From Lachnospiraceae bacterium (GTDB taxonomy: Bacteria > Bacillota > Clostridia > Lachnospirales > Lachnospiraceae), in contig JAJQDT010000147.1 in NCBI GenBank assembly GCA_021202075.1, forward strand, positions 26,324-90,323: a stretch of DNA of 64,000 nucleotides. The letters run 5' to 3'. Positions 41,514 through 63,855 of the stretch are shown here, one piece after another. The notes under the pieces were generated by a model. It searched no databases, was not told the DNA's origin, and saw only the letters and a program-made list of their open reading frames with translations. Each line of letters begins with the position of its first letter. The stretch's first letter is position 1. The position numbers and the translations under genes are program-made.

Positions 41514-42716
41514 TCAGCCTGCCATCTCTAATTTCAGCTTTACAATCCTTGTTACGGATTTGTCCAGTCTGGACTCTGAAATCTTTCCTGAGCGGACTGC
41601 GGAAAGGACAGCATTATAGGCCTGAACAAAATTTTCCGGTGCCAGAATCATATCACAGCCGGCCTGTATGGCCTTGACAGCGGCCTGTCCGGATGAATAG
41701 CTGTCTGTGATCGCGCTCATTGACATGGCATCTGTAATCACAATTCCATCATAGGAAAGTTCATTTCTCAGAATCTTTGTTACGATTTTCTTAGAGAGTG
41801 TCGCAGGAACATTGCTGCCTGTCACATTTGGCAGAGAAATATGTCCAACCATAATAAATTCGGTTCCCTTTGCGATCCCTTTTTTGAAAGGCTTCAGTTC
41901 GCTGTTTCTCAGCTGCGAAAGTTTACGGAGAGAGACTGCCATCCCCAGATGAGAATCCTCTGTAGTATTTCCATGCCCCGGGAAATGCTTCAGAGTCGAT
42001 GCAATTCCTGCGGCGTGCAATCCGTCAACGTATTTCCCCACCATTTTTGATACCAGAGAGGAACTGGATCCGAAAGACCTGTATTTAACCACCGTATTAG
42101 ATGGATTGCTCCAGATATCTGCTACCGGTGCAAAGTCAACATTGAAACCGTATTTTGCAAGATAAGTCCCAATATACTTTCCAGCCGAATAGGCCTTACT
42201 CGCCTTTTTCGTTGCACCTATGGCGCTCATATTTCCTACATTTTTTACACCAAACGCACTTTTTGAGGCAATCCTTGCAACAGTTCCCCCTTCTTCGTCT
42301 ACAGCAATGAACGGGATGACTCCAACCGTATTCACGCTCATGCTCTTAAGTGCTTTGTTGAGTTTTTTTATCTGACTCACCCCGGTGATGTTGCTTCCCA
42401 TCAGAATAAATCCGCCAACCGGATATTTCTTATACTTACTTTTCAATTCGCTGGTCACTTTTGTCGCCGCGCCGCCTCCCGTCAGCGTCTCAGGTGTAAT
42501 AACAAATAACTGAGCCACTTTTTCTTTCAGAGTCATGTTTTCCACGATTTGTTTTACATCCGTCTGCTGTGTATCCATCTGTTCTGTTTCTGTAGCCGAC
42601 TGTTCCGTTTCTGCCTGTGCTGCCAGAGTATCGGCCTTTCCGGCCCCGATCAGAAAGCCCACCAAACAGACTAACCCTGCAATTTTCCAAAACTGTTTCC
42701 AATGGTCTATTTTCAT
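41514..42716 (-). CDS. nagZ: Secreted beta-N-acetylhexosaminidase, GH3
   Basis: A 400-residue glycoside hydrolase family 3 enzyme with the NagZ markers: GGFILMGSNI, FIAVDEEGGTVARI, the catalytic KHFPGHGNTTEDSH (with the acid/base His loop) and the nucleophile Asp in YDGIVITDAMSMSAI. NagZ-type enzymes cleave N-acetylglucosamine from peptidoglycan fragments. An N-terminal signal (IAGLVCLVGFLIGAGKADTLA) and a Thr/Glu/Gln-rich linker of about 30 residues indicate secretion, as in Bacillus NagZ. GGGGGAAA precedes the ATG. It follows two other secreted proteins on the same strand and lies between the direct repeats. Confidence 0.93.
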   Translation of the reverse strand: MKIDHWKQFWKIAGLVCLVGFLIGAGKADTLAAQAETEQSATETEQMDTQQTDVKQIVENMTLKEKVAQLFVITPETLTGGGAATKVTSELKSKYKKYPVGGFILMGSNITGVSQIKKLNKALKSMSVNTVGVIPFIAVDEEGGTVARIASKSAFGVKNVGNMSAIGATKKASKAYSAGKYIGTYLAKYGFNVDFAPVADIWSNPSNTVVKYRSFGSSSSLVSKMVGKYVDGLHAAGIASTLKHFPGHGNTTEDSHLGMAVSLRKLSQLRNSELKPFKKGIAKGTEFIMVGHISLPNVTGSNVPATLSKKIVTKILRNELSYDGIVITDAMSMSAITDSYSSGQAAVKAIQAGCDMILAPENFVQAYNAVLSAVRSGKISESRLDKSVTRIVKLKLEMAG

Positions 42717-43219: not shown

Positions 43220-46200
43220 TCATTTCGAAATTCGAACCTTTTTCGCCTTACTCCATGCAGAATAGTACTTCACTCCGGAAACTGTCTTATAGCTGCGGAT
43301 TCGCACATAATACGTTTTTTTCATCTTTAAATTCTTTAATTTGCAGCTTGTTTTTGCAGATTTGGAGATCGTCTTTGTTTTGCATCCCTTTGTAAAACTG
43401 CTGTTTCTGGCGTACTGAATCTCATAACCGGTCACCTTGCTTTTTTTCTTCCACTTTACGGTCACGGTTTTAGAGGATTTATTCTTCACAGAAGAAAGAG
43501 AAACCTTCGTCAGTCTCACTATCTTCCCTTCCCCTCCATTTCCAACTATGATTTTTGAATGTCCAAAATAAGGTTTTACCATATAAGTATATTTTGTTCC
43601 GTTCACGCTTTTTACGGTTTTATCCGTATAGCTGACAGTGGAAGCATTCGTTATTTTTTGAATTATTTCATAATCGTCTGATCCGGTTTTACGGTAAATA
43701 TAATACCCGGCAGCGCCAGATACTTCGGTCCATTTCAGTTTTATTCCACTGCTCAGATTTGTCAGCGAACTGAACTCTGACGGAGTGGAATAATCAACAG
43801 AGGACTGGAGAACGCTCGGTTGATTCAGGTCAATCGAGAAGAAAACCGGTTCAGAGGAATCCGTGCAATACCAGTAAACCGTATTGCCCGAAACGATTGG
43901 CTGACAATCCGAAAGCATCCCCGTAGCTGAATAAATCTCAGAGGTCGCATTTCCCTGCCCGTCAAGATAAACAAAACGGAGGGTTCTATTGATAAAGGTC
44001 TCGTCATCAATCTCTTCACTTGTTTCTTCTGTCCACAATAACAGGAAACGGTCACTGCCCAGCTTTACCAGCTGCGGCGTAGATACCGTGATATCTGTAT
44101 CCATACTGTAACTTGTTATCCACCGGACGCTCGTGCCCGATGTGCTGAAATCGTTTCTGGATGTAACCGTCACAAAAATATTGCGGGTTGTATAGCTCGA
44201 CCAGCCAGAGTCCTGATTCACAGAATTTCCTGCTACAAGATACGACGAGGAGGAGTATTCCAGTCCGCCAAGAGATGCGCCTGTTGCGTTATCCCCCGTT
44301 TCTCCTTGAAACGAAAATATCTTCAGGGACGCATAATCTGAGCCGCCGCCCACTTCCGCGGCACATCGGTTCAGCACTGCTGCTCGGGGATAAGCATCAC
44401 CATGATCCAGGGAGACAAAATTTCCTGCATCATCAACAAGAACAAACTGATTAAACGAATGGGATACATATCCGAAGGGGGAACTCGCTACCTTATAATG
44501 AGCTTCGGCAATCGTCATATCCGATTCATTTACAAGCACGGTCACATTCGCCTGATGATTCAGGCCATCTGAGGATGCATACATCTTATGACTGGTACGA
44601 ATATAAAGATACCCTCCTCTTTCCGTCATTCGCAAGCTTCCTGAACTAAATGGAACGGTTGTATTTGCGCCATACAGGCTTGCTTCTCCCTGCCGTACCC
44701 AGTCCGTGCTGTATTTCACCACACGTATGACTTCAATGGAATCATCCTCCCCCGAATTGGACTGCCCGAATACCAGATAATATGCATTACTTGCAGCGTA
44801 AAAGCCTCCAAAGGATTCCAGTTCGCATAAAACGGTTTTCTTTCGTGTCAGATTCATTGCACTGTCATAGTATTCAACTATAATCGCATCGCTTGTGTAT
44901 TCCACCCGCATAAAGCCGCCGCTTACTGCTGTTAAATAGGAGTTTACAACAGAACTCCGCGTCGAATACGTCTGAGCATCTATGTTTGTCGAATTCTGGA
45001 TGGACAATTCAGCAACATCTGATACAGTGTTGGAATAATAGATAATTTTCTTAGAAGAGCCGGTTCCTGACGCACCTCCGGCAAAAGCCCGGACTTCATA
45101 AGAATATTCCGTTCCGCTGGCCACATTTGTATCTGTGAAACTGGTGGCAGAGGCATCGTTAATCGTCGCAATCACGGAATAACTGTCCGACGATGTCTTT
45201 CGATACACATAGTATCCCTCGGCATCTGAGACAGGTTCCCAATTGATTTTTATGCCTCCAGAGAGCATATCCAGAACCGACAGATTGACTCGCGGTAAAA
45301 TATTTTTTGAACTGTTATAATAAATATCCGCACCCGTCAGATATGTATTTGAAGAACCAATACTGATATTCGCCCAAGCAGCTTCGGAGCCTCCGTAATA
45401 GACTTCAGCCAGGTTGGAACACGAATTGAAAGCATATGCCGAAACTGTAGTTAAACTTGCCGGGAGACGCAATGTCACAAGATTAGTACAATTAGCAAAT
45501 GAATATTCTCCGAGCGCCTGCACACCATCGCCTAAAACAACATTCTTCAGCCCTGTACAGTACGCAAAAGCGTTGGAACCTATTGTTATTACACTGTCAG
45601 GAATTGTAACCGATGGCAGGCTCTTACAGGTGGAAAAAGCACATATGCCAATATCTGTCAGTGTATCAGGAAGGGATATCGATGTCAGATTTTCGCAATT
45701 CCAAAACGCATAAGAACAGATCGTAGTAATTCCACTTTCTATAACAACCGATTTAATAGAAGACCTTTGACTGTACCACGGGACGTAAGAATTCTCCGTC
45801 ATTTCTCCGCTGCCGCTGACCGTCAGTGTCCCGTCCTCTGACAAGTCCCATGTCCAGTCACCGGTCTCCTCGCTGATCGTTGCAATCATCGATTCATCGA
45901 CATCCTCGATGGATTCAATCAAAATATCAGAAGCCTCACTTAATACATCAGATTCTGAGTTCTCCGTATTCAGATTCGATCCTGAGTCCAAAGCTTCTGT
46001 CTGTGACTCTCCGCCAGCGTCATCTGTGGTTTCCGTGGTTTCCGTGGTTTCTGTGTTTTCCGAGCCTTCTATGTTGTCCGAATTCTCTGTGTTTTCCTCA
46101 CTTCCCGCTTCCCCCATATCAATCAGCAGCGCCCCGGATTCCAGGCTCTCATCTTCTCCCAGAATAACTTCCGCAGAATCATCCGTTGCCACAACCGACG

Positions 46201-46354
46201 ATTCCGAAATCTCTTCCAATTCACCATCTGAAACTACAGTCGGATTCTCGTCCTCCACAGCAATCTCCACATCTTCATTCGCAGAAATTATATTTGCCGG
46301 CCAAACGGCAAAAACCGCTATTGCCAATAGTATAAACGCTTTCTTTTTCATCAT
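43220..46354 (-). CDS. Secreted BspA-type LRR and Fn3 protein
   Basis: A 1044-residue surface or secreted protein. Signal peptide (AFILLAIAVFAVWPANIISA), then an acidic Ser/Thr/Glu linker with repeated SENTE and TTETT units. BspA-like leucine-rich repeats follow (YAFWNCENLTSISLPDTLTD, AFAYCTGLKNVVLGDGVQAL), five in all, about residues 190-340. Then an Fn3-like domain, a roughly 400-residue middle that may be a beta-propeller, a second Fn3 (LKWTEVSGAAGYYIYRK) and a C-terminal Fn3-like module (TYYVRIRSYKTVSGVKYYSA) shared with the next protein. No LPxTG-type anchor. GGAGG lies four bases before ATG 46354 (seven before 46351). Adhesion is inferred. Confidence 0.88.
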   Translation of the reverse strand: MMKKKAFILLAIAVFAVWPANIISANEDVEIAVEDENPTVVSDGELEEISESSVVATDDSAEVILGEDESLESGALLIDMGEAGSEENTENSDNIEGSENTETTETTETTDDAGGESQTEALDSGSNLNTENSESDVLSEASDILIESIEDVDESMIATISEETGDWTWDLSEDGTLTVSGSGEMTENSYVPWYSQRSSIKSVVIESGITTICSYAFWNCENLTSISLPDTLTDIGICAFSTCKSLPSVTIPDSVITIGSNAFAYCTGLKNVVLGDGVQALGEYSFANCTNLVTLRLPASLTTVSAYAFNSCSNLAEVYYGGSEAAWANISIGSSNTYLTGADIYYNSSKNILPRVNLSVLDMLSGGIKINWEPVSDAEGYYVYRKTSSDSYSVIATINDASATSFTDTNVASGTEYSYEVRAFAGGASGTGSSKKIIYYSNTVSDVAELSIQNSTNIDAQTYSTRSSVVNSYLTAVSGGFMRVEYTSDAIIVEYYDSAMNLTRKKTVLCELESFGGFYAASNAYYLVFGQSNSGEDDSIEVIRVVKYSTDWVRQGEASLYGANTTVPFSSGSLRMTERGGYLYIRTSHKMYASSDGLNHQANVTVLVNESDMTIAEAHYKVASSPFGYVSHSFNQFVLVDDAGNFVSLDHGDAYPRAAVLNRCAAEVGGGSDYASLKIFSFQGETGDNATGASLGGLEYSSSSYLVAGNSVNQDSGWSSYTTRNIFVTVTSRNDFSTSGTSVRWITSYSMDTDITVSTPQLVKLGSDRFLLLWTEETSEEIDDETFINRTLRFVYLDGQGNATSEIYSATGMLSDCQPIVSGNTVYWYCTDSSEPVFFSIDLNQPSVLQSSVDYSTPSEFSSLTNLSSGIKLKWTEVSGAAGYYIYRKTGSDDYEIIQKITNASTVSYTDKTVKSVNGTKYTYMVKPYFGHSKIIVGNGGEGKIVRLTKVSLSSVKNKSSKTVTVKWKKKSKVTGYEIQYARNSSFTKGCKTKTISKSAKTSCKLKNLKMKKTYYVRIRSYKTVSGVKYYSAWSKAKKVRISK

Positions 46355-46611
46355 AGCCCCTCCACATAACATAACTTTATTGGACAATTCTCCTGACTCG
46401 GACAAGCCGGAACCAAAATTTTGCCATTTTGCGCAGGAAATTGTTCTTAAGTTTCTAAATATACATCCGAATGCATCATCCAAATGCATTGATCATTCGC
46501 AACAAAGAATTCTTGCTTTTTCCCTTCGAAAGAATCTCGTCATTACCTGCGCAATGACAGACTGTGCAAGGCGCCCTCGCTAAGCACAGCCTGTCATTCC
46601 GAATTAATCTC

Positions 46612-49600
46612 TTACGATACCTTCACTTTTTTCTTGCTGCTCCACGCACTGTAATATGTCGTTCCATTTACCTTTTTGTATGTTCGGATACGGACATAAT
46701 AAGTCTTTCCGCTTTTCAGCTTTGAAAGCACCTTGCTTACTTTCTTTGCGCCGGAAACTTTGACGGTTTTTGTAGCGCTACCGCTCTTAAACTTCTTGCT
46801 CGTGGAATACTGAATCTGGTAGCCGCTTACCTTTGTCGTCTTCTTCCACTTCACAGTTGCTTTCTTCGCAGCGGAACTGGTCACACCAGAAAGCTTCACT
46901 GCAACCAGCCGCACAGTTGTCTGCGGCGCACTCGCCGTACCTTCGACACTCCCGGTATAAGGAACAACCTTATAAATATATGTGGTACCGTTCTTTTTCT
47001 TTACCTTTGTATCCGTATAGCTCAGTTTGGCACCGCTTGTAATGGTCTTAATCTTCGTGTACTTACCTTTTGTCGTCTTACGGTAAATATTGTAGCCATC
47101 CGCGCCATCCGCCATCGTCCAGCTGAGTTTTATTCCTTTAGAGGTATTCGTCAGGCTAGAAATAGCAAATGTGTCCGTTTCCGATGTATCTCCATCTGTG
47201 GAAGACTGTGAACCAGCAGCGTTGGCAGAATCCGTATTGGTCGTTCCAGATTCCGTTCCCGTGCTTCCCTGTGCACCCGTGGCTGTTCCGGTTCCGGCAG
47301 AAGAGTCTGCGGATGATCCCGTATTTGTACCAGAGCCGCTGTCACTCGATGTTCCGGTATCTGTGCTGCTTCCAGTTCCACCCGATGAATCCGAGCCATC
47401 CTGGGAATCATCCGTATTCCCTACTGTGATGGTAAGCTCTTTGCTCGCAGAATTATAGTTTGCGTTTCCTTCCGCCGAAACAATAATGATCACAGTGCCT
47501 TCCGCCAGACCAGTAACCACACCCGACTCATCGACAGAGGCAATGGAAGAATCGCTGGAACTATAAGTAATCGTGCCAGTTCCGATTGCCGTGATCGCGG
47601 CTGTTTCCCCGATACCAATACTCTCCGTATCAACCGACGCAGTCAGCGTCTGACTGGCCTTGTTAATTGTGAAATACAGCACAACCTCGCCTGTATAATT
47701 GCCTGTTCCGGTAACTGTAACCGTTGCCGTACCGGCGTTCGTATTATTGGCGTAGGTAACCGAATAATCCGAACCGGCGGTCAACTTTGTGTCCCCGTTT
47801 TTCACTGTAACTGACGGCTTTTTTGCGCTCCCGCTGTAGGTAATGCTGGTATAAGACAGCGTGATAGTGCAAGTCTCCAGGCTGACCACCGTCTGAGCAG
47901 CCCCATAGACTGCGGCATCAAACGATTCCGCACTTTCGCGTAAAATATATGTAAACGAAAGTGTACCATCACTCCCGGCTATTCCCTGCGCAATGAAGAG
48001 CAGGTTCTCCGCCGCCAGCAATTCCTCTGCATCCGCATCCTTCACAACAATCAAAACATATTGCTCGCCGGAAACCAGTTCTGCAAAGGAAGACATTATT
48101 CCGCCGCCGTTGTCCGATGTCGTGCCAGCATATGCCGTCTCGACAATAATCGCCTCGTTTTCATAAATGATGTTCCCCGTCTCAGAATCCGCTAAAGTTT
48201 CTTCTGCCGTCTCGATGTCAATCAGAGCTTCCTCTATCGTTTCAGTTTCAGCAGTCGTCTCCGATTCGGAGGTAATCTCCGTTTCTGCGGTAATTTCCGC
48301 TTCTGATTCTTCAACCGTCTCCTCTGCATCCTCTACAGCCGTGGCTGCTGCTGTTTCTTCAGTCCCATCACTTTCGTCCTCCGTCATCTCTGTTTCGTTT
48401 GTTGTATCCTCTTCCAGATCAATGACTAAGGTTTCCAGAGCCTCATCCGAAATCTCCGTAGGCATTTCTTCTTCCGAAACCGCAGACAAAGCGGTTGAGA
48501 AATCGCTAATTACTAATTCTGCGGTTCCTTCCCATTCGCATATAAAAGATCCTAATGAACCATAACTATCGATATCATCCCATTGCCCTGGTGAGATACT
48601 ATATTCTGAGTCGTTTCTGTATCCGTTACATATAACACCATAATTCTGCTCTCCCAGGTTATCCGGTTCCCCTGTTCCCCAATTAGTATAAGTAACTTCT
48701 TCCCCCGTCACCCAATAGTTCCAGTTGCCCTCACCATCTGCATCAGTTAACCCTATCCATATATCTTCATCATCTGCAACACTCTGGACATAATCAAAAA
48801 CCGCATCCTGTTCCTCTTGTGAAGTAATAGTGACCAAATGACCCCCTAATGTCTCACAGTATTTCTTTGCCTCTTCCCAAGTATATCCGTAATTGTAATA
48901 ATAGCGATAACTATTGCCATTGAAGGTAACAACATCTTCAGGAATGCTCATGTTCGAATTCGCACTTATAAATTCATCGCAAGTATATTCATCCCACTCA
49001 CATATATATCCTTCCTGCTCTGTACTGGCATTAACCAAATCATTCCACTCATAGGGCCATACAGCAACATATTGTTCATCTAATTCCGGATACTCACCCG
49101 AGTCATTATTAGGCTCATCTTCCGCCCAATTAGTATAGTTCCACTCTTCACCAGTTACCCAATACCAATTGAAGTTTTCGTCACAATATCCGCCGATCCA
49201 GTATAAACCACCTGAGAGCGTTTCAATGAAGGCCTGTTCATCACTTGAAGTAATTGTTGCCAGATGTCCTCCCAATTCCACACAATTATTCTCCGCATTT
49301 ATCCAGGTAAGCTGATCCGTATAAACATAATAATAGTGTCCATTATATTCCACCGCGTCATCAGGAATAGTTTTACCATTCGCGTTCAAACAATGAATAG
49401 TTACGGTCTGTGCTTCTCCGTCCACCGTAATTTCCTGTTCTCCATACTGGTCGCCGGATGTTACAGACAAAGTATAATCTCCATTTCCCAGATAGAATGT
49501 CGCTTCTCCACTGTCATCCGTTATCGGATCCGCATCCAGACCTGTTCCGCCAATCACAGCGTCCGCCAGCGCATTTCCGTAGGCATCTGTAGCGGTCACA

Positions 49601-51354
49601 GTCACTTTATAGCTCAGATGCGGGCAGGTCGTCCACCCATAATCCCCATATGTAAACGAATAATAGAAATCCTTGTATTTGTACTCCTTATCCAGCAGGC
49701 TTGCCGTTTTATCCCACCAAAGCAGGGAAAGCGTTACCGATACCTTACCAATAATATAAAGTTCTCCTGCAACACATATGTCACAGGCGTGTTTGTAGCT
49801 GGTCTCAGTGGCCGACCATTCCATGGACGCATTCAATTTCCCACCCATCTCAGCAGTGACAACAACGCTTGCCGCAGACAGAGAAATTCCATCCACCTCA
49901 AGGCCTAGAGATACCTTCGGGCTGAGAATCAAAGCAACATATACCGTAGCTTCCACATTTAAACTGCAATCTGTCATTTTCGGCGCATAGGATGTATTTG
50001 AAAATCCGTTGCTGCTGCTCCAGGAGAATCCGACAGCAGTCTTAAATTCTATATTCAAAGAGACTTTACCCTCTGCCGTAAACTTTACAGCGGGTGTAAA
50101 GCCGATATTGACGCCTTCCACGATCATAACAGAAACATTGCCCAGTTTTTTCTCAACAGAGATTGCCGCCTTAATTTCGCCGGAAACCTTTGCTGTCGCG
50201 GTAACAGAAGCCTCTACATAAGCATAAGTCAGGCTGATATAAAGCTTCATATTTGCCTGAATTCCCAAGGAAGCTGACAAATCATATCCCCCGGTCACAG
50301 TGCCGCTGCTGTTTGTCCAGGTTTCTTTCAGCAGTTTATAAGGGAGAGTCTTAGATACACTGCCTTCTTTTTCCAGTGCGGTTGCAGCAATGCCTTCTTC
50401 CTCCTCGAGGAACGTGACTTCCTCGTCCAGTTCACTGTTATCCACAACAATTTCTTCATCGCCGGTGCTCTCAATCTTCAGGTAGTCGAACACATCATCC
50501 AGATCAATATCTTCATCTGCTGTAATTGTCACTGTCGTGCCACTGACCGAAATGGCTGCCACCTTAACAATCAGCACCGTTCCGTCCAAAAATGCGTAAA
50601 CGAAGACATCCCCCACTGCCATTTCTGTGAAGGTCTCATCCGCATTTGTTATCGTGTAGGTTCCGTCTCCATTATCCGTAAGCGTATTGATGCCATCCGT
50701 CTCCTGAACCAAGATAACATCTGACCCGTAAACACCAAAGTTCGTGTCTGTATTCTCGTCCAGATTCAATACCAGTTCAGAGTCAAAATCCTCCGTGGTC
50801 CGATCAATCAGGTTCTGAATTTCCTCTGTGTACAGCTCGCTGGTAAACGCATCTGCCAGCGGTTCGTAACCGTCTCTGGTCAGAAGGAAAGCCGTGACCA
50901 GAAAATATTCCGGCATATCTCCTTCGATGGTGACATCGACCTGCGAATCCTCGCTGTCCACATCGGCGGTTCCGGATGCCAGCATCTGGGCTCCATCCTC
51001 CGTATAGACAGCCACTACAATCAGACTGTCCTGATCCGTCTGAAATTCTACCGTGGCAGTAGATCCTTCTACAAGCAAATCCGAGATCGCACAGGCGCTT
51101 TCCGAAGTCTCCTCGTTCTCTTCCAGCTCCTCCGAAATTGTACTTGCAATCATGGTTCCTACAGATCCGGTGCCGCTGACTTCAAGCTCATTCGTCTCCG
51201 CCTCAACACTTACTTCTGCCGGGTCATCTGCATCATTTTGAACATTCTCAGCAATACTCGTACCAGTATCCGATGCCCAGACAGAAGATACATTGGTCAT
51301 ACAAAGCGTTACTACCAGCATCAGCGCCAATACTCTTTTAAATTTTCTCTTCAT
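46612..51354 (-). CDS. Large secreted protein with two C-type lectin domains
   Basis: 1580 residues. Signal peptide (VLALMLVVTLCMTNVSSVWA), acidic linker, a beta-rich region (80-650, with YKACDICVAG-like KHACDICVAGELYIIGK), then two tandem C-type-lectin-like domains: about 670-790 (NAENNCVELGGHLATITSSD, EDEPNN, YEWND) and 800-943 (KYCETLGGHLVTITSQEEQD, GEPDN, GQWDD). The EPN and WND patterns recall calcium-dependent, mannose-type sites. A Glu/Thr-rich linker, an MBG/YDG-like domain, a Big2-type domain (SSSDSSIASVDESGVVTGLA), a Ser/Gly/Thr linker and two Fn3 modules follow. No sortase motif. ATG 51354 is preferred, six bases after GGAGG. Glycan binding is inferred. Confidence 0.88.
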   Translation of the reverse strand: MKRKFKRVLALMLVVTLCMTNVSSVWASDTGTSIAENVQNDADDPAEVSVEAETNELEVSGTGSVGTMIASTISEELEENEETSESACAISDLLVEGSTATVEFQTDQDSLIVVAVYTEDGAQMLASGTADVDSEDSQVDVTIEGDMPEYFLVTAFLLTRDGYEPLADAFTSELYTEEIQNLIDRTTEDFDSELVLNLDENTDTNFGVYGSDVILVQETDGINTLTDNGDGTYTITNADETFTEMAVGDVFVYAFLDGTVLIVKVAAISVSGTTVTITADEDIDLDDVFDYLKIESTGDEEIVVDNSELDEEVTFLEEEEGIAATALEKEGSVSKTLPYKLLKETWTNSSGTVTGGYDLSASLGIQANMKLYISLTYAYVEASVTATAKVSGEIKAAISVEKKLGNVSVMIVEGVNIGFTPAVKFTAEGKVSLNIEFKTAVGFSWSSSNGFSNTSYAPKMTDCSLNVEATVYVALILSPKVSLGLEVDGISLSAASVVVTAEMGGKLNASMEWSATETSYKHACDICVAGELYIIGKVSVTLSLLWWDKTASLLDKEYKYKDFYYSFTYGDYGWTTCPHLSYKVTVTATDAYGNALADAVIGGTGLDADPITDDSGEATFYLGNGDYTLSVTSGDQYGEQEITVDGEAQTVTIHCLNANGKTIPDDAVEYNGHYYYVYTDQLTWINAENNCVELGGHLATITSSDEQAFIETLSGGLYWIGGYCDENFNWYWVTGEEWNYTNWAEDEPNNDSGEYPELDEQYVAVWPYEWNDLVNASTEQEGYICEWDEYTCDEFISANSNMSIPEDVVTFNGNSYRYYYNYGYTWEEAKKYCETLGGHLVTITSQEEQDAVFDYVQSVADDEDIWIGLTDADGEGNWNYWVTGEEVTYTNWGTGEPDNLGEQNYGVICNGYRNDSEYSISPGQWDDIDSYGSLGSFICEWEGTAELVISDFSTALSAVSEEEMPTEISDEALETLVIDLEEDTTNETEMTEDESDGTEETAAATAVEDAEETVEESEAEITAETEITSESETTAETETIEEALIDIETAEETLADSETGNIIYENEAIIVETAYAGTTSDNGGGIMSSFAELVSGEQYVLIVVKDADAEELLAAENLLFIAQGIAGSDGTLSFTYILRESAESFDAAVYGAAQTVVSLETCTITLSYTSITYSGSAKKPSVTVKNGDTKLTAGSDYSVTYANNTNAGTATVTVTGTGNYTGEVVLYFTINKASQTLTASVDTESIGIGETAAITAIGTGTITYSSSDSSIASVDESGVVTGLAEGTVIIIVSAEGNANYNSASKELTITVGNTDDSQDGSDSSGGTGSSTDTGTSSDSGSGTNTGSSADSSAGTGTATGAQGSTGTESGTTNTDSANAAGSQSSTDGDTSETDTFAISSLTNTSKGIKLSWTMADGADGYNIYRKTTKGKYTKIKTITSGAKLSYTDTKVKKKNGTTYIYKVVPYTGSVEGTASAPQTTVRLVAVKLSGVTSSAAKKATVKWKKTTKVSGYQIQYSTSKKFKSGSATKTVKVSGAKKVSKVLSKLKSGKTYYVRIRTYKKVNGTTYYSAWSSKKKVKVS

Positions 51355-51582
51355 TTTCATCCTCCCTCAACATTCTTTTTATTGTTCAAAATTTCCCAAA
51401 CCTGAAACTGCCTCTATAAATGAACCGATTCCTCTTTCCCTTCACTCATTTGGTACATTATTGAATTTAATATATCATTATATGTGGCTTTTAGCAATAG
51501 TTTTTCTGAATTATATCTTATAGCCAGTGTCATTTTCTATCCAAAAGCTATATTTTATAGCCAAAAGATAAGGAGACCGCTT

Positions 51583-51927
51583 ATGGATTTACTGGAAATC
51601 GGCTATCGCATCAAAGCCGCACGAAAGAGGGAAAAACTGACGCAGGAAATGCTCGCGGAGCTGGTGAATGTAACGCCGCATTATATCTATGAGATTGAAC
51701 AGGGCCGGAAAACCATGTCCCTGCAGACGCTGGAACAGATTTCGTCCACGCTGCATCTTTCGCTGGATTACCTGATCTGGGGTGATTCGGGGCCAAATAA
51801 CAAAGGCAGCGCGGATTCCATATCAAAAAAGGACGATCTCGACCGTGTGATTGGCGGTCTCTCTGCTCCGGAGAAGGCAGCCACCGCCAAAGTGCTGGGC
51901 GAATTGATGGTCCGCCTTGAAAAATGA
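51583..51927 (+). CDS. XRE family transcriptional regulator
   Basis: A 114-residue Cro/C1-type regulator. The helix-turn-helix is KLTQEMLAELVNVTPHYIYE followed by IEQGRKTMSLQTLEQISSTL; the C-terminal half (LDRVIGGLSAPEKAATAKVL) is helical. The track ORF extends 33 codons upstream through A+T-rich DNA; ATG 51583 with AAGGAG seven bases upstream is the better start. TATAGCCA occurs twice just before the gene with CCAAAAG extensions (51520-51567), possible operators. It is divergent from the lectin-domain gene, which it might regulate. Confidence 0.85.
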   Translation: MDLLEIGYRIKAARKREKLTQEMLAELVNVTPHYIYEIEQGRKTMSLQTLEQISSTLHLSLDYLIWGDSGPNNKGSADSISKKDDLDRVIGGLSAPEKAATAKVLGELMVRLEK

Positions 51928-61123: not shown

Positions 61124-63055
61124 TCAGGAATTTTTCTTGTTCTTCTTCCACGGTGACCGCTCCCGCTGCGCCATCTCCAGCGCCGCCGCGATCACCTTAT
61201 CCATATCATAATACTTATAGGCCCCGAGCCGTCCGCCGAAAACCACATTTTCTTCTTTATCCGCAAGCTCGCGGTATTTCTCGTAAAGGGCATTGTTTTT
61301 ATCATCATTTACCGGATAATACGGCTCCATCCCCGGATGCCATTCGGCGGAATACTCTCTGGAGATGATGGAATAATTCTTCGGATGCTCTGCCTCCGCC
61401 TCCGGCTCAAAGTGCTTGTGCTCAATGACGCGTGTATACGGCACCGCGCGGTCTGTATAATTCACGACCGCATTGCCCTGAACATTCGGCTGCTCGACCC
61501 GCTCCGTCTCAAACCGGACGCTCCGGTATTCCAGATGACCGTAGCAAAAGTCAAAATACTCATCAATCATACCGGTGTAAAGTACCCGGGAGTACATATC
61601 CGGGTGTTCCTTCCGCCAGGCAAAGAAGTCCGTGTCCGTCATCACATCCACGTTCTCCAGAAGCTTTTCTACCAGCTTTGTGTAACCGCCCATCGGAATT
61701 CCCTGATAGCGGTCGTTGAAATAATTATTGTCATAGGTAAACCGGAGCGGGAGCCTGCGGATGATAAACGCAGGCAGATCCTTGCAGTCTCTGCCCCACT
61801 GTTTTTCCGTGTAGCCTTTAACCAGCTTCTCATAGACATCCGGCCCCACTAAAGAGAGCGCCTGCTCCTCCAGATTCTTCGGCTCTGTGATCCCCAGGTC
61901 CGCAATCTGCCCGGCAATTTTCTCCTGCACCTCCCGCGGCGTTTTCAGGTTCCAGAGACGGCTGAATGTGTTCATGTTAAAGGGCATGTTGTAGAGCTCG
62001 TCCTTATAAATCGCCACCGGGGAATTGATGTAATGATTAAAATCGGCCAGATTGTTGACATATTTCCAGACCTTCTCATTACTCGTATGGAAAATATGCG
62101 CCCCATACCGGTGCACCTGGATGCCATCTACATCCTCCGTATAAATATTCCCGCCAATATGGCTGCGCCGGTCGATCACCAGACAGCGTTTTCCGATTTT
62201 AGTCATCTCATTCGCAAAGACTGCGCCAAAAAGCCCGGCGCCCACCACCAGATAGTCGTATTTTTTTCCCTGCGCTCTCTGCCGCGCGCGTTTCTCCTGC
62301 TTGCGCGTACGGATTTCCAGATTCTGCTGCTCGCGGTAGGCCTCGCAGACCTCCTGCGCGTTGCCAATCATGTGCATTTTTCCATGATCAAGCCAGAGCG
62401 CCTTGTCGCAAAGGTTCTTCACGGAATCCACATTGTGCGAAACGTAAAGCAGGGTGGTGCCGCTCGCGAGCATCTGCTGCATGCGCTCATTGCATTTCCG
62501 GCGGAATTTCATGTCGCCGACCTCCAGCACCTCATCCACAATCAGAATATCCGGGTTCACCACGGTAGCCACAGAGAATCCGAGCCGTGCCTTCATACCG
62601 GAGGAAAAATTCTTCACCGGTGAATCCAGGAATTTCTCCATATTTGCGAATTCCACGATCTCATCGAAATGCTCTTCCATGAACTGCCTGGAATGCCCAA
62701 GCACCAGACCGTTCAGGTAAATGTTTTCCCTGGCAGTCAGGTTCTGGTCAAACCCGGCACCCAGCTCAATCAGCGGCGCAGTCTTTCCGTGCACCGTCAC
62801 AGTTCCCTCATAAGGCTGCAGAATTCCGCTGACCGCTTTGAGCAGCGTAGACTTGCCGGAGCCGTTCGGCCCCACCAGACCCCAGGCCTCTCCCTGCTTT
62901 ACCTCAAAGCTGATATCCTGCAGCGCCAGGAATTCCTGAAACATCAGCTGGCGCTTTGCCAGCTTAATCGCGTATTCTTTCAGATTATCGACCTTCTCGC
63001 TGGCCAGATTAAACCGGATTTTTAAATGGTCTACCTCTATCACTGTTTTACTCAT
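61124..63055 (-). CDS. Polysaccharide ABC-ATPase fused to UDP-galactopyranose mutase
   Basis: 643 residues in one uninterrupted frame. Residues 1-245 are a TagH/Wzt-type export ATPase: Walker A GPNGSGKST (62-70), signature NFSSGMKARL (149-158), Walker B DILIVDE (169-175) and switch His 207. A very basic linker (RTRKQEKRARQRAQGKK, about 249-265) joins it to a complete Glf: FAD site YDYLVVGAGLFGAVFANEM, RYGAHIFHTSNEKVWKYVN, YTEKQWGRDCKDLP and C-terminal FGGRLGAYKYYDMDKVI. Glf converts UDP-galactopyranose to UDP-galactofuranose. The permease gene ends 11 bases upstream. ATG 63055 has GAGGG eight bases upstream. The fusion would couple galactofuranose precursor supply to glycan export. Confidence 0.93.
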   Translation of the reverse strand: MSKTVIEVDHLKIRFNLASEKVDNLKEYAIKLAKRQLMFQEFLALQDISFEVKQGEAWGLVGPNGSGKSTLLKAVSGILQPYEGTVTVHGKTAPLIELGAGFDQNLTARENIYLNGLVLGHSRQFMEEHFDEIVEFANMEKFLDSPVKNFSSGMKARLGFSVATVVNPDILIVDEVLEVGDMKFRRKCNERMQQMLASGTTLLYVSHNVDSVKNLCDKALWLDHGKMHMIGNAQEVCEAYREQQNLEIRTRKQEKRARQRAQGKKYDYLVVGAGLFGAVFANEMTKIGKRCLVIDRRSHIGGNIYTEDVDGIQVHRYGAHIFHTSNEKVWKYVNNLADFNHYINSPVAIYKDELYNMPFNMNTFSRLWNLKTPREVQEKIAGQIADLGITEPKNLEEQALSLVGPDVYEKLVKGYTEKQWGRDCKDLPAFIIRRLPLRFTYDNNYFNDRYQGIPMGGYTKLVEKLLENVDVMTDTDFFAWRKEHPDMYSRVLYTGMIDEYFDFCYGHLEYRSVRFETERVEQPNVQGNAVVNYTDRAVPYTRVIEHKHFEPEAEAEHPKNYSIISREYSAEWHPGMEPYYPVNDDKNNALYEKYRELADKEENVVFGGRLGAYKYYDMDKVIAAALEMAQRERSPWKKNKKNS

Positions 63056-63066
63056 AAATTTATCCC

Positions 63067-63855
63067 TCAAATATACAAGACAAAGCGATCCTTCGAGCGC
63101 TGGAAGGTCCATGTGCCGAATGCCAGCATCAGAAACGCGATCAGCCAGCCGCCCCAGAAGATGCGCGGCCCCGGAAAGTTTCCATAATAAACCAGATCCC
63201 GGAACTGTGCCACATAATAATACAGCGGATTGAACGCCTTGACGAAAAAGATAACATTCGCCGGGAGTCTGTTGATCTCATAGATGATCGGCGTCACATA
63301 GAACCAGGCGGTCAGAACCGCACTGTAGATATGCTCCACATCGCGAAAAAACACATTAAACTGCGCAAGGAAAAAGCCAAGCCCGCAGCAGAACAGGTAA
63401 ATCTGCACGACCACCAGCGGGGTAAACAGCAGCGTCGGATAAAATCTGGCGCCGGTCGCGATCATCACAATAATCAGCGCCCCAAACGACAATACCATAT
63501 CCACCATTGCACTTGTCACCCTTGCAAGTGTAAATACATATTTTGGCACATAGACCTTTTGCAGCAGGGAGGCGTTCCCTGTCACGGATTTCATAGCGGA
63601 ATTGGTGCTCGTCTTCAGAAAGTCATACATCAATCGCCCGGACAGCAGATAAACCGGGTAATTTTCAATCTTTTTCCCCAAAAGGTTAGAAAATACAATC
63701 ACCAGCACAATCATATACAGCAACGGCTGGAGAATCGACCACACATAGCCCAGGACGCTGCGCCGATATTTCAGCTTCAGATCGCGCTTTACCAGTTCAA
63801 GAATCAGATCCCTGTACTTAAACAATGTACGGATCCGGTAATTCAATAATTCCAT
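63067..63855 (-). CDS. Polysaccharide/teichoic acid ABC export permease
   Basis: A 262-residue ABC-2 permease of the TagG/Wzm/RfbA type with six membrane helices. It begins with the cytosolic KYRDLILELVKRDLKLKYRR coupling helix, followed by SVLGYVWSILQPLLYMIVLV; the family signature AWFYVTPIIYEINRLP lies in the last third. Together with the ATPase-Glf fusion it would export a polyprenyl-linked glycan. The start at ATG 63855 has GGAGG five bases upstream; the track start adds 14 residues. First gene of the envelope operon. Confidence 0.94.
   Translation of the reverse strand: MELLNYRIRTLFKYRDLILELVKRDLKLKYRRSVLGYVWSILQPLLYMIVLVIVFSNLLGKKIENYPVYLLSGRLMYDFLKTSTNSAMKSVTGNASLLQKVYVPKYVFTLARVTSAMVDMVLSFGALIIVMIATGARFYPTLLFTPLVVVQIYLFCCGLGFFLAQFNVFFRDVEHIYSAVLTAWFYVTPIIYEINRLPANVIFFVKAFNPLYYYVAQFRDLVYYGNFPGPRIFWGGWLIAFLMLAFGTWTFQRSKDRFVLYI

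Follow-up and report, generated by a model that had tools for sequence, protein, structure and literature searches.

A gene in the window, the 64,000-nucleotide stretch of DNA analysed here, encodes a protein with two tandem C-type lectin-like domains (CTLDs), which is probably a secreted, surface-retained, modular and calcium-dependent glycan-binding adhesin. The fold is shown by profile and model, and sequence comparison shows the ligand residues, the common scaffold and tail and the differing cassettes of related proteins; from these we infer sugar and calcium binding, wall retention and adhesion. An adhesin role is reasonable since the protein is secreted and modular, contains no catalytic domain and shares its scaffold with BspA-LRR proteins. 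The domain class itself is already known; what is added here is the exchange of recognition cassettes on a common scaffold and a recurrent basic tail. The features of the gene, together with the neighbouring gene that shares this tail, are as follows:

46612..51354, minus strand: coding sequence of the lectin protein, 1580 aa; open frame, with GGGAGG at a suitable distance before the start at 51354
51274..51354, minus strand: signal peptide, residues 3-29 (MKRKFKRVLALMLVVTLCMTNVSSVWA), read by eye from the sequence
49396..51252, minus strand: N-terminal scaffold module, residues 37-655, 27-65% identical to LRR_5/RCC1 proteins
48991..49371, minus strand: first C-type lectin-like domain (CTLD1), residues 664-790
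48526..48945, minus strand: second C-type lectin-like domain (CTLD2), residues 806-945
48091..48513, minus strand: acidic E/T-rich linker, residues 950-1090, recognised by composition
47641..47883, minus strand: MBG-like domain, residues 1160-1240
47416..47628, minus strand: Big_2 domain (PF02368), residues 1245-1315
47173..47403, minus strand: Ser/Thr/Gly linker, residues 1320-1396, 48% S+T
46615..47172, minus strand: basic tail of two Fn3-like domains, residues 1397-1582
43220..46354, minus strand: secreted BspA-type LRR_5 protein with the same basic Fn3 tail (LRR_5 E = 1.4e-33, fn3 E = 3.8e-15)

Counted from its first ATG, the open reading frame (46612-51360, minus strand) comprises 1582 codons. 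A Shine-Dalgarno-like GGGAGG abuts this ATG at 51360 but is properly spaced from a second ATG at 51354; the better spacing makes the latter the right start and agrees with the 1580 residues proposed by the reading of the DNA that preceded this work, made from the sequence alone (hereafter the sequence-only reading). Residues are numbered here from the first of these two in-frame ATGs, at 51360. The signal peptide has a basic N terminus, a hydrophobic core and an A-X-A-like end.

The presence of two tandem CTLDs, proposed from motifs, is borne out by profile, model and structure comparison. Pfam Lectin_C matches the protein with two domains at a joint E = 4.8e-26 (92 bits against a cut-off of 22.6 bits); in a six-frame search each domain exceeds the cut-off alone (E = 5.2e-18 and 1.0e-10), and these two are the only Lectin_C domains in the genome. 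The domains were modelled singly with AlphaFold (AF2), using input alignments of the window sequences and selected other loci only; single-domain sequences align badly across the tandem pair. The models reached pLDDT 87.3 and pTM 0.84 for CTLD1 and pLDDT 81.1 and pTM 0.80 for CTLD2, the former being weakest in the long loop that bears the predicted binding site (blocks at pLDDT 67-68). When they were compared with the PDB by Foldseek, the best 50 rows were all C-type lectin-like domains, with human MCL and CD23 as top matches for CTLD1 and SRCL and CD23 for CTLD2 (E down to 1.6e-11 and 2.4e-9, TM of about 0.7-0.79 by query length), so both models have the CTLD topology. The alignment predicts the C1-C4 disulfide in each domain (C693-C787 in CTLD1, C835-C941 in CTLD2); these cysteines are kept, whereas the second canonical disulfide is absent from CTLD1 and from most of the aligned CTLDs of the bacterial family. 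A recent internal duplication was rejected as the source of the tandem: the two domains share 37% identity and lie in different parts of the tree, in placements without starred support.

How far do the two domains retain a calcium site? The sequence-only reading had ascribed WIGG/WIGL, EPN-type and WND-type motifs to both. This holds for CTLD1 (WIGG at 721, EPN at 749-751, WND at 772-774) and for the core of CTLD2 (WIGL at 868), but CTLD2 reads EPD at 898-900 and WDD at 927-929. On the scheme of site 2 in mincle, which consists of EPN, a further Glu and WND (PMC7618208), CTLD1 presents the full mannose-type set, E749, N751, E762, N773 and D774. The corresponding residues of CTLD2 are E898, D900, Q905, D928 and D929, with Asp at both Asn-type positions and Gln in place of Glu, although E904 could stand in for Q905 by a shift of one residue. 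A lack of the CTLD topology or of the calcium ligands had been named beforehand as what would speak against lectins; CTLD1 has both, whereas CTLD2 has the topology with changed ligand chemistry. As CTLD2 reads EPD/Q/WDD, its specificity cannot be assumed; it may still bind sugar, because bivalve lectins with EPD motifs bind mannose (PMC12842671).

Most CTLDs of the bacterial family carry EPN/E/WND or chemically matched ligand sets in the alignment, and in this domain family, whose members are roughly 30-45% identical, the calcium site belongs to the best conserved regions. Among 60 of these CTLDs, the third and fourth ligand positions read E/N in 30, Q/D in 8, E/D in 3 and Q/N in 1, a covariation of E/N versus Q/D with p = 1.2e-5 by simple count that comes down to few independent changes in a tree-corrected test. 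This pattern points to an exchange of acid and amide between the two members of a ligand pair, although kinship could explain much of it. It would resemble the EPN/QPD exchange, a known specificity switch in the other ligand pair of the calcium site.

Upstream of the lectin pair lies a scaffold module of about 620 aa, absent from the sequence-only reading, that ends in a CarboxypepD_reg/Ig-like domain (residues 585-655, where Pfam support is weak); a Pfam search of residues 30-585 matched no family. When the genus was searched with the full-length protein, residues 37-655 and the stretch from about 960 to the end each proved common to proteins without lectins. The nearest scaffold relatives, two proteins of one other genome (G306:C182 at 65% and G306:C117 at 55% identity), carry LRR_5 repeats in the slot taken here by the lectins. 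BspA-type LRR_5 repeats also fill it in remoter relatives, two of them in the same genome (C156 and C161) and others in genomes G152 and G143, while RCC1-like repeats occupy it in L065 (G060:C117) and L066 (G276:C76). It is from these relatives that we read the lectin pair as an exchanged cassette on a reused scaffold. The C156 paralogue is split by an assembly gap, with the scaffold on one side and the C-terminal part beyond it; its tail is the closest match in the genome to that of the lectin protein (78%).

Below the lectins, the protein continues as a stalk. Of the Big2, MBG-like and Fn3 modules of the sequence-only reading, Big_2 (E = 7.5e-7, above cut-off when searched as a fragment) and Fn3 (E = 3.5e-8; one Pfam match in the full-length search, two clear stretches on fragments) are well supported, while the MBG-like assignment is weak (MBG_3 E = 0.0033, below cut-off), even if the region recurs in many proteins of the genus. 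Charge is distributed very unevenly: residues 950-1160 alone have a net charge of -55, and residues 31-1396 sum to -216, whereas the last 186 residues carry +37, a reversal that the sequence-only reading did not note. At least 14 proteins of the genome terminate in this basic double-Fn3 tail, with 0-1 residues beyond the match; in the downstream LRR_5 protein the charge of the tail is +33. As proposed before, there is no sortase motif: a search of the lectin protein for a C-terminal LPxTG-type motif found none. A natural guess, based on charge and recurrence, is that the tail is a candidate module for sortase-free wall retention.

Taken together, the N-terminal scaffold and the Ig/Fn3 stalk would hold out a cassette of two calcium-dependent CTLDs. 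CTLD1 would bind one calcium ion via E749, N751, E762, N773 and D774 and, together with the ion, the vicinal 3- and 4-hydroxyls of a mannose-, glucose-, GlcNAc- or fucose-type sugar. CTLD2 probably binds calcium by its altered ligands (E898, D900, Q905, D928, D929) and may read a different sugar, or add avidity or structure. The basic Fn3 tail, which recurs on many otherwise unlike secreted proteins of the cell, would probably retain the protein within the anionic wall independently of sortase, and binding specificity could evolve by cassette exchange, given the leucine-rich or RCC1-like repeats that relatives put in the same slot. The sequence-only reading had suggested an adhesin for host or microbial glycans, a view that is plausible and in part supported; the glycan might belong to a host, the diet, microbes or the cell's own surface. 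A bolder version of this model, which we put forward only tentatively and consider doubtful as a whole, is that the genus holds a protein family with an undescribed scaffold, exchangeable cassettes and a basic Fn3 tail for sortase-free wall sorting, in which the Glu/Asn to Gln/Asp change of the CTLD2 type acts as a specificity switch in the manner of EPN/QPD.

CTLDs are no rarity in the bacterial family of this genome. Lectin_C scores above cut-off in 46 of 299 genomes of the bacterial family, nearly all of different genera, in 16 of 47 genomes of the genus and in 8 of 399 genomes drawn from the phylum, compared with none of 14 control genomes. Relatives occur on 77 viral contigs and on a few plasmids, one of them from Clostridioides difficile, where a gene (NZ_CP037841.1:15715-16110) encodes an Ig-like protein matching C-type lectin-like domains. 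The domains found beside CTLDs include NPCBM, phage-lysozyme, cohesin/dockerin, Big_2 and Fn3. The statement that such domains are mostly known from animals is thus apt for characterised C-type lectins, and our search of the openly available literature found no characterised canonical bacterial one; it does not fit the domain itself, which is so common in the bacterial family and in phages that its presence alone is no surprise. Phage or plasmid cargo was rejected as an origin, the relatives in phage and plasmid records being only distant (35-41% identity or less), as was a role as target of a diversity-generating retroelement (DGR), since the CTLD DNA has no second (template) copy in its own draft genome.

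Several other explanations of the lectin pair have to be weighed. Most of what is known about C-type lectins comes from animals, which might suggest that a gut bacterium recently acquired the domains from an animal; yet the closest relatives of the window CTLDs are bacterial (45-46% identity, against 23-33% to solved animal CTLDs), the domains vary widely within the bacterial family and in phages, and the second animal disulfide is missing, so that we reject this origin with near certainty. A different doubt concerns function. Many CTLDs bind proteins or nothing, and the pair could have lost sugar binding to become protein-binding or structural, as in intimin and invasin. The altered ligands of CTLD2 fit such a loss, and there are CTLDs that do without calcium, one of the fold matches being such a case (2zib, a type II antifreeze protein); but all five ligands are retained in CTLD1, at a site that is among the best conserved of the domain family, and we regard the loss as quite unlikely. 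It is also conceivable, if still unlikely, that the lectins have the wall polymer or capsule of the cell itself as their ligand and thereby anchor the protein rather than attach the cell elsewhere. A surface-polymer cluster lies at 55-63 kb of the window, 4-12 kb upstream of the lectin gene, and encodes a glycosyltransferase 2, an epimerase, an IspD/TarI-like protein, a CDP-glycerol glycerophosphotransferase and a UDP-galactopyranose mutase; the missing sortase motif would agree with such anchoring. However, this proximity is seen in one genome only, and sisters with the same scaffold or tail have no lectin domains, which means that anchoring does not need them.

The last alternative, glycan foraging, arises from the gene at 41514-42716, downstream of the LRR gene. 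It encodes a secreted GH3 beta-N-acetylhexosaminidase-like enzyme, for which the CTLD pair might concentrate substrate at the surface. The enzyme carries KHFPGHG...DSH, which we take to be the signature of NagZ-type beta-N-acetylglucosaminidases. Of 60 regions examined across the bacterial family, 10 combine a GH3 gene of this NagZ-like type with a CTLD gene at a distance of no more than about 6 kb, where 0.06 would be expected (Poisson 8e-20, uncorrected for kinship), and the linkage recurs in 5 of 7 close homologues of the genus. In 7 of the 10 linked regions, the CTLD gene lies directly upstream of GH3 on the same strand. However, the GH3-linked CTLDs mostly read EPS-E-WND and form the C-terminal domain of Hanks-type kinases, VWA proteins or membrane proteins with a zinc ribbon; with few exceptions they group in a single clade (SH-aLRT 96), to which the window CTLDs do not belong. 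We therefore rejected a direct link in function between the window CTLDs and the nearby GH3 gene, and the linkage, real but of another CTLD clade, is not used as evidence for the window protein. As the LRR gene separates the two genes and their closeness may be chance, we judge a foraging partnership very unlikely. The loci that encode these other CTLD proteins (L235:5752-14150, L236:7156-10081, L239:7983-10725, L254, L255, L268, L293, L297 and L304) look like a sensor-plus-hexosaminidase module, and this linkage may be the more novel finding compared with the window protein.

We would like to place the putative glycan-binding adhesin into the context of known systems. With the lectins of PF00059 (mannose-binding protein, CD23, MCL, SRCL, macrophage mannose receptor) it shares the fold, the WIGG/WIGL core, the EPN-E-WND site in CTLD1 and the C1-C4 cysteines; it differs in being bacterial, in the absent second disulfide, in the EPD-Q-WDD of CTLD2 and in its bacterial Ig/Fn3 stalk. 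Counterparts in architecture are the BspA-type LRR_5 surface proteins of Clostridia, sisters with the same N-terminal scaffold and C-terminal modules whose leucine-rich repeats are replaced here by the lectin pair. Intimin- and invasin-type adhesins combine an Ig-like stalk and a C-type-lectin-like fold with an outer-membrane barrel. The window protein shares stalk and fold, and presumably the adhesin role, but is a secreted Gram-positive protein that keeps calcium ligands and lacks the barrel. Zeta crAss-like phages use receptor-binding proteins of C-type-lectin fold that are varied by DGRs (PMC12386605); there the CTLD serves recognition, a role only predicted here, whereas our CTLDs sit mid-protein in a bacterial gene that has no template copy in the draft genome.

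Calcium-type lectins have been studied almost only in animals, even though about one in six of the sampled genomes of this bacterial family has the domain. If they bind glycans, these CTLDs would form an overlooked set of adhesins with readable specificity motifs, and cassette exchange together with the shared basic tail offers a testable model of how many surface proteins could be built and retained without sortase.

The remaining elements around the gene are:

46553..46598, minus strand: hairpin with 15-bp arms between the lectin and LRR genes (fold -34.5 kcal/mol, z -4.4)
51583..51927, plus strand: divergent XRE-type helix-turn-helix regulator (HTH_3 E = 8.8e-13)
61124-63112, minus strand: 662-aa frame fusing an ABC_tran ATPase to GLF (UDP-galactopyranose mutase)

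The hairpin has no T-run, its exact arms occur only here, and it is a possible transcript end; the XRE-type protein is a possible regulator of the lectin gene. The ATPase-mutase fusion, which adjoins teichoic-acid-type genes, is unusual.
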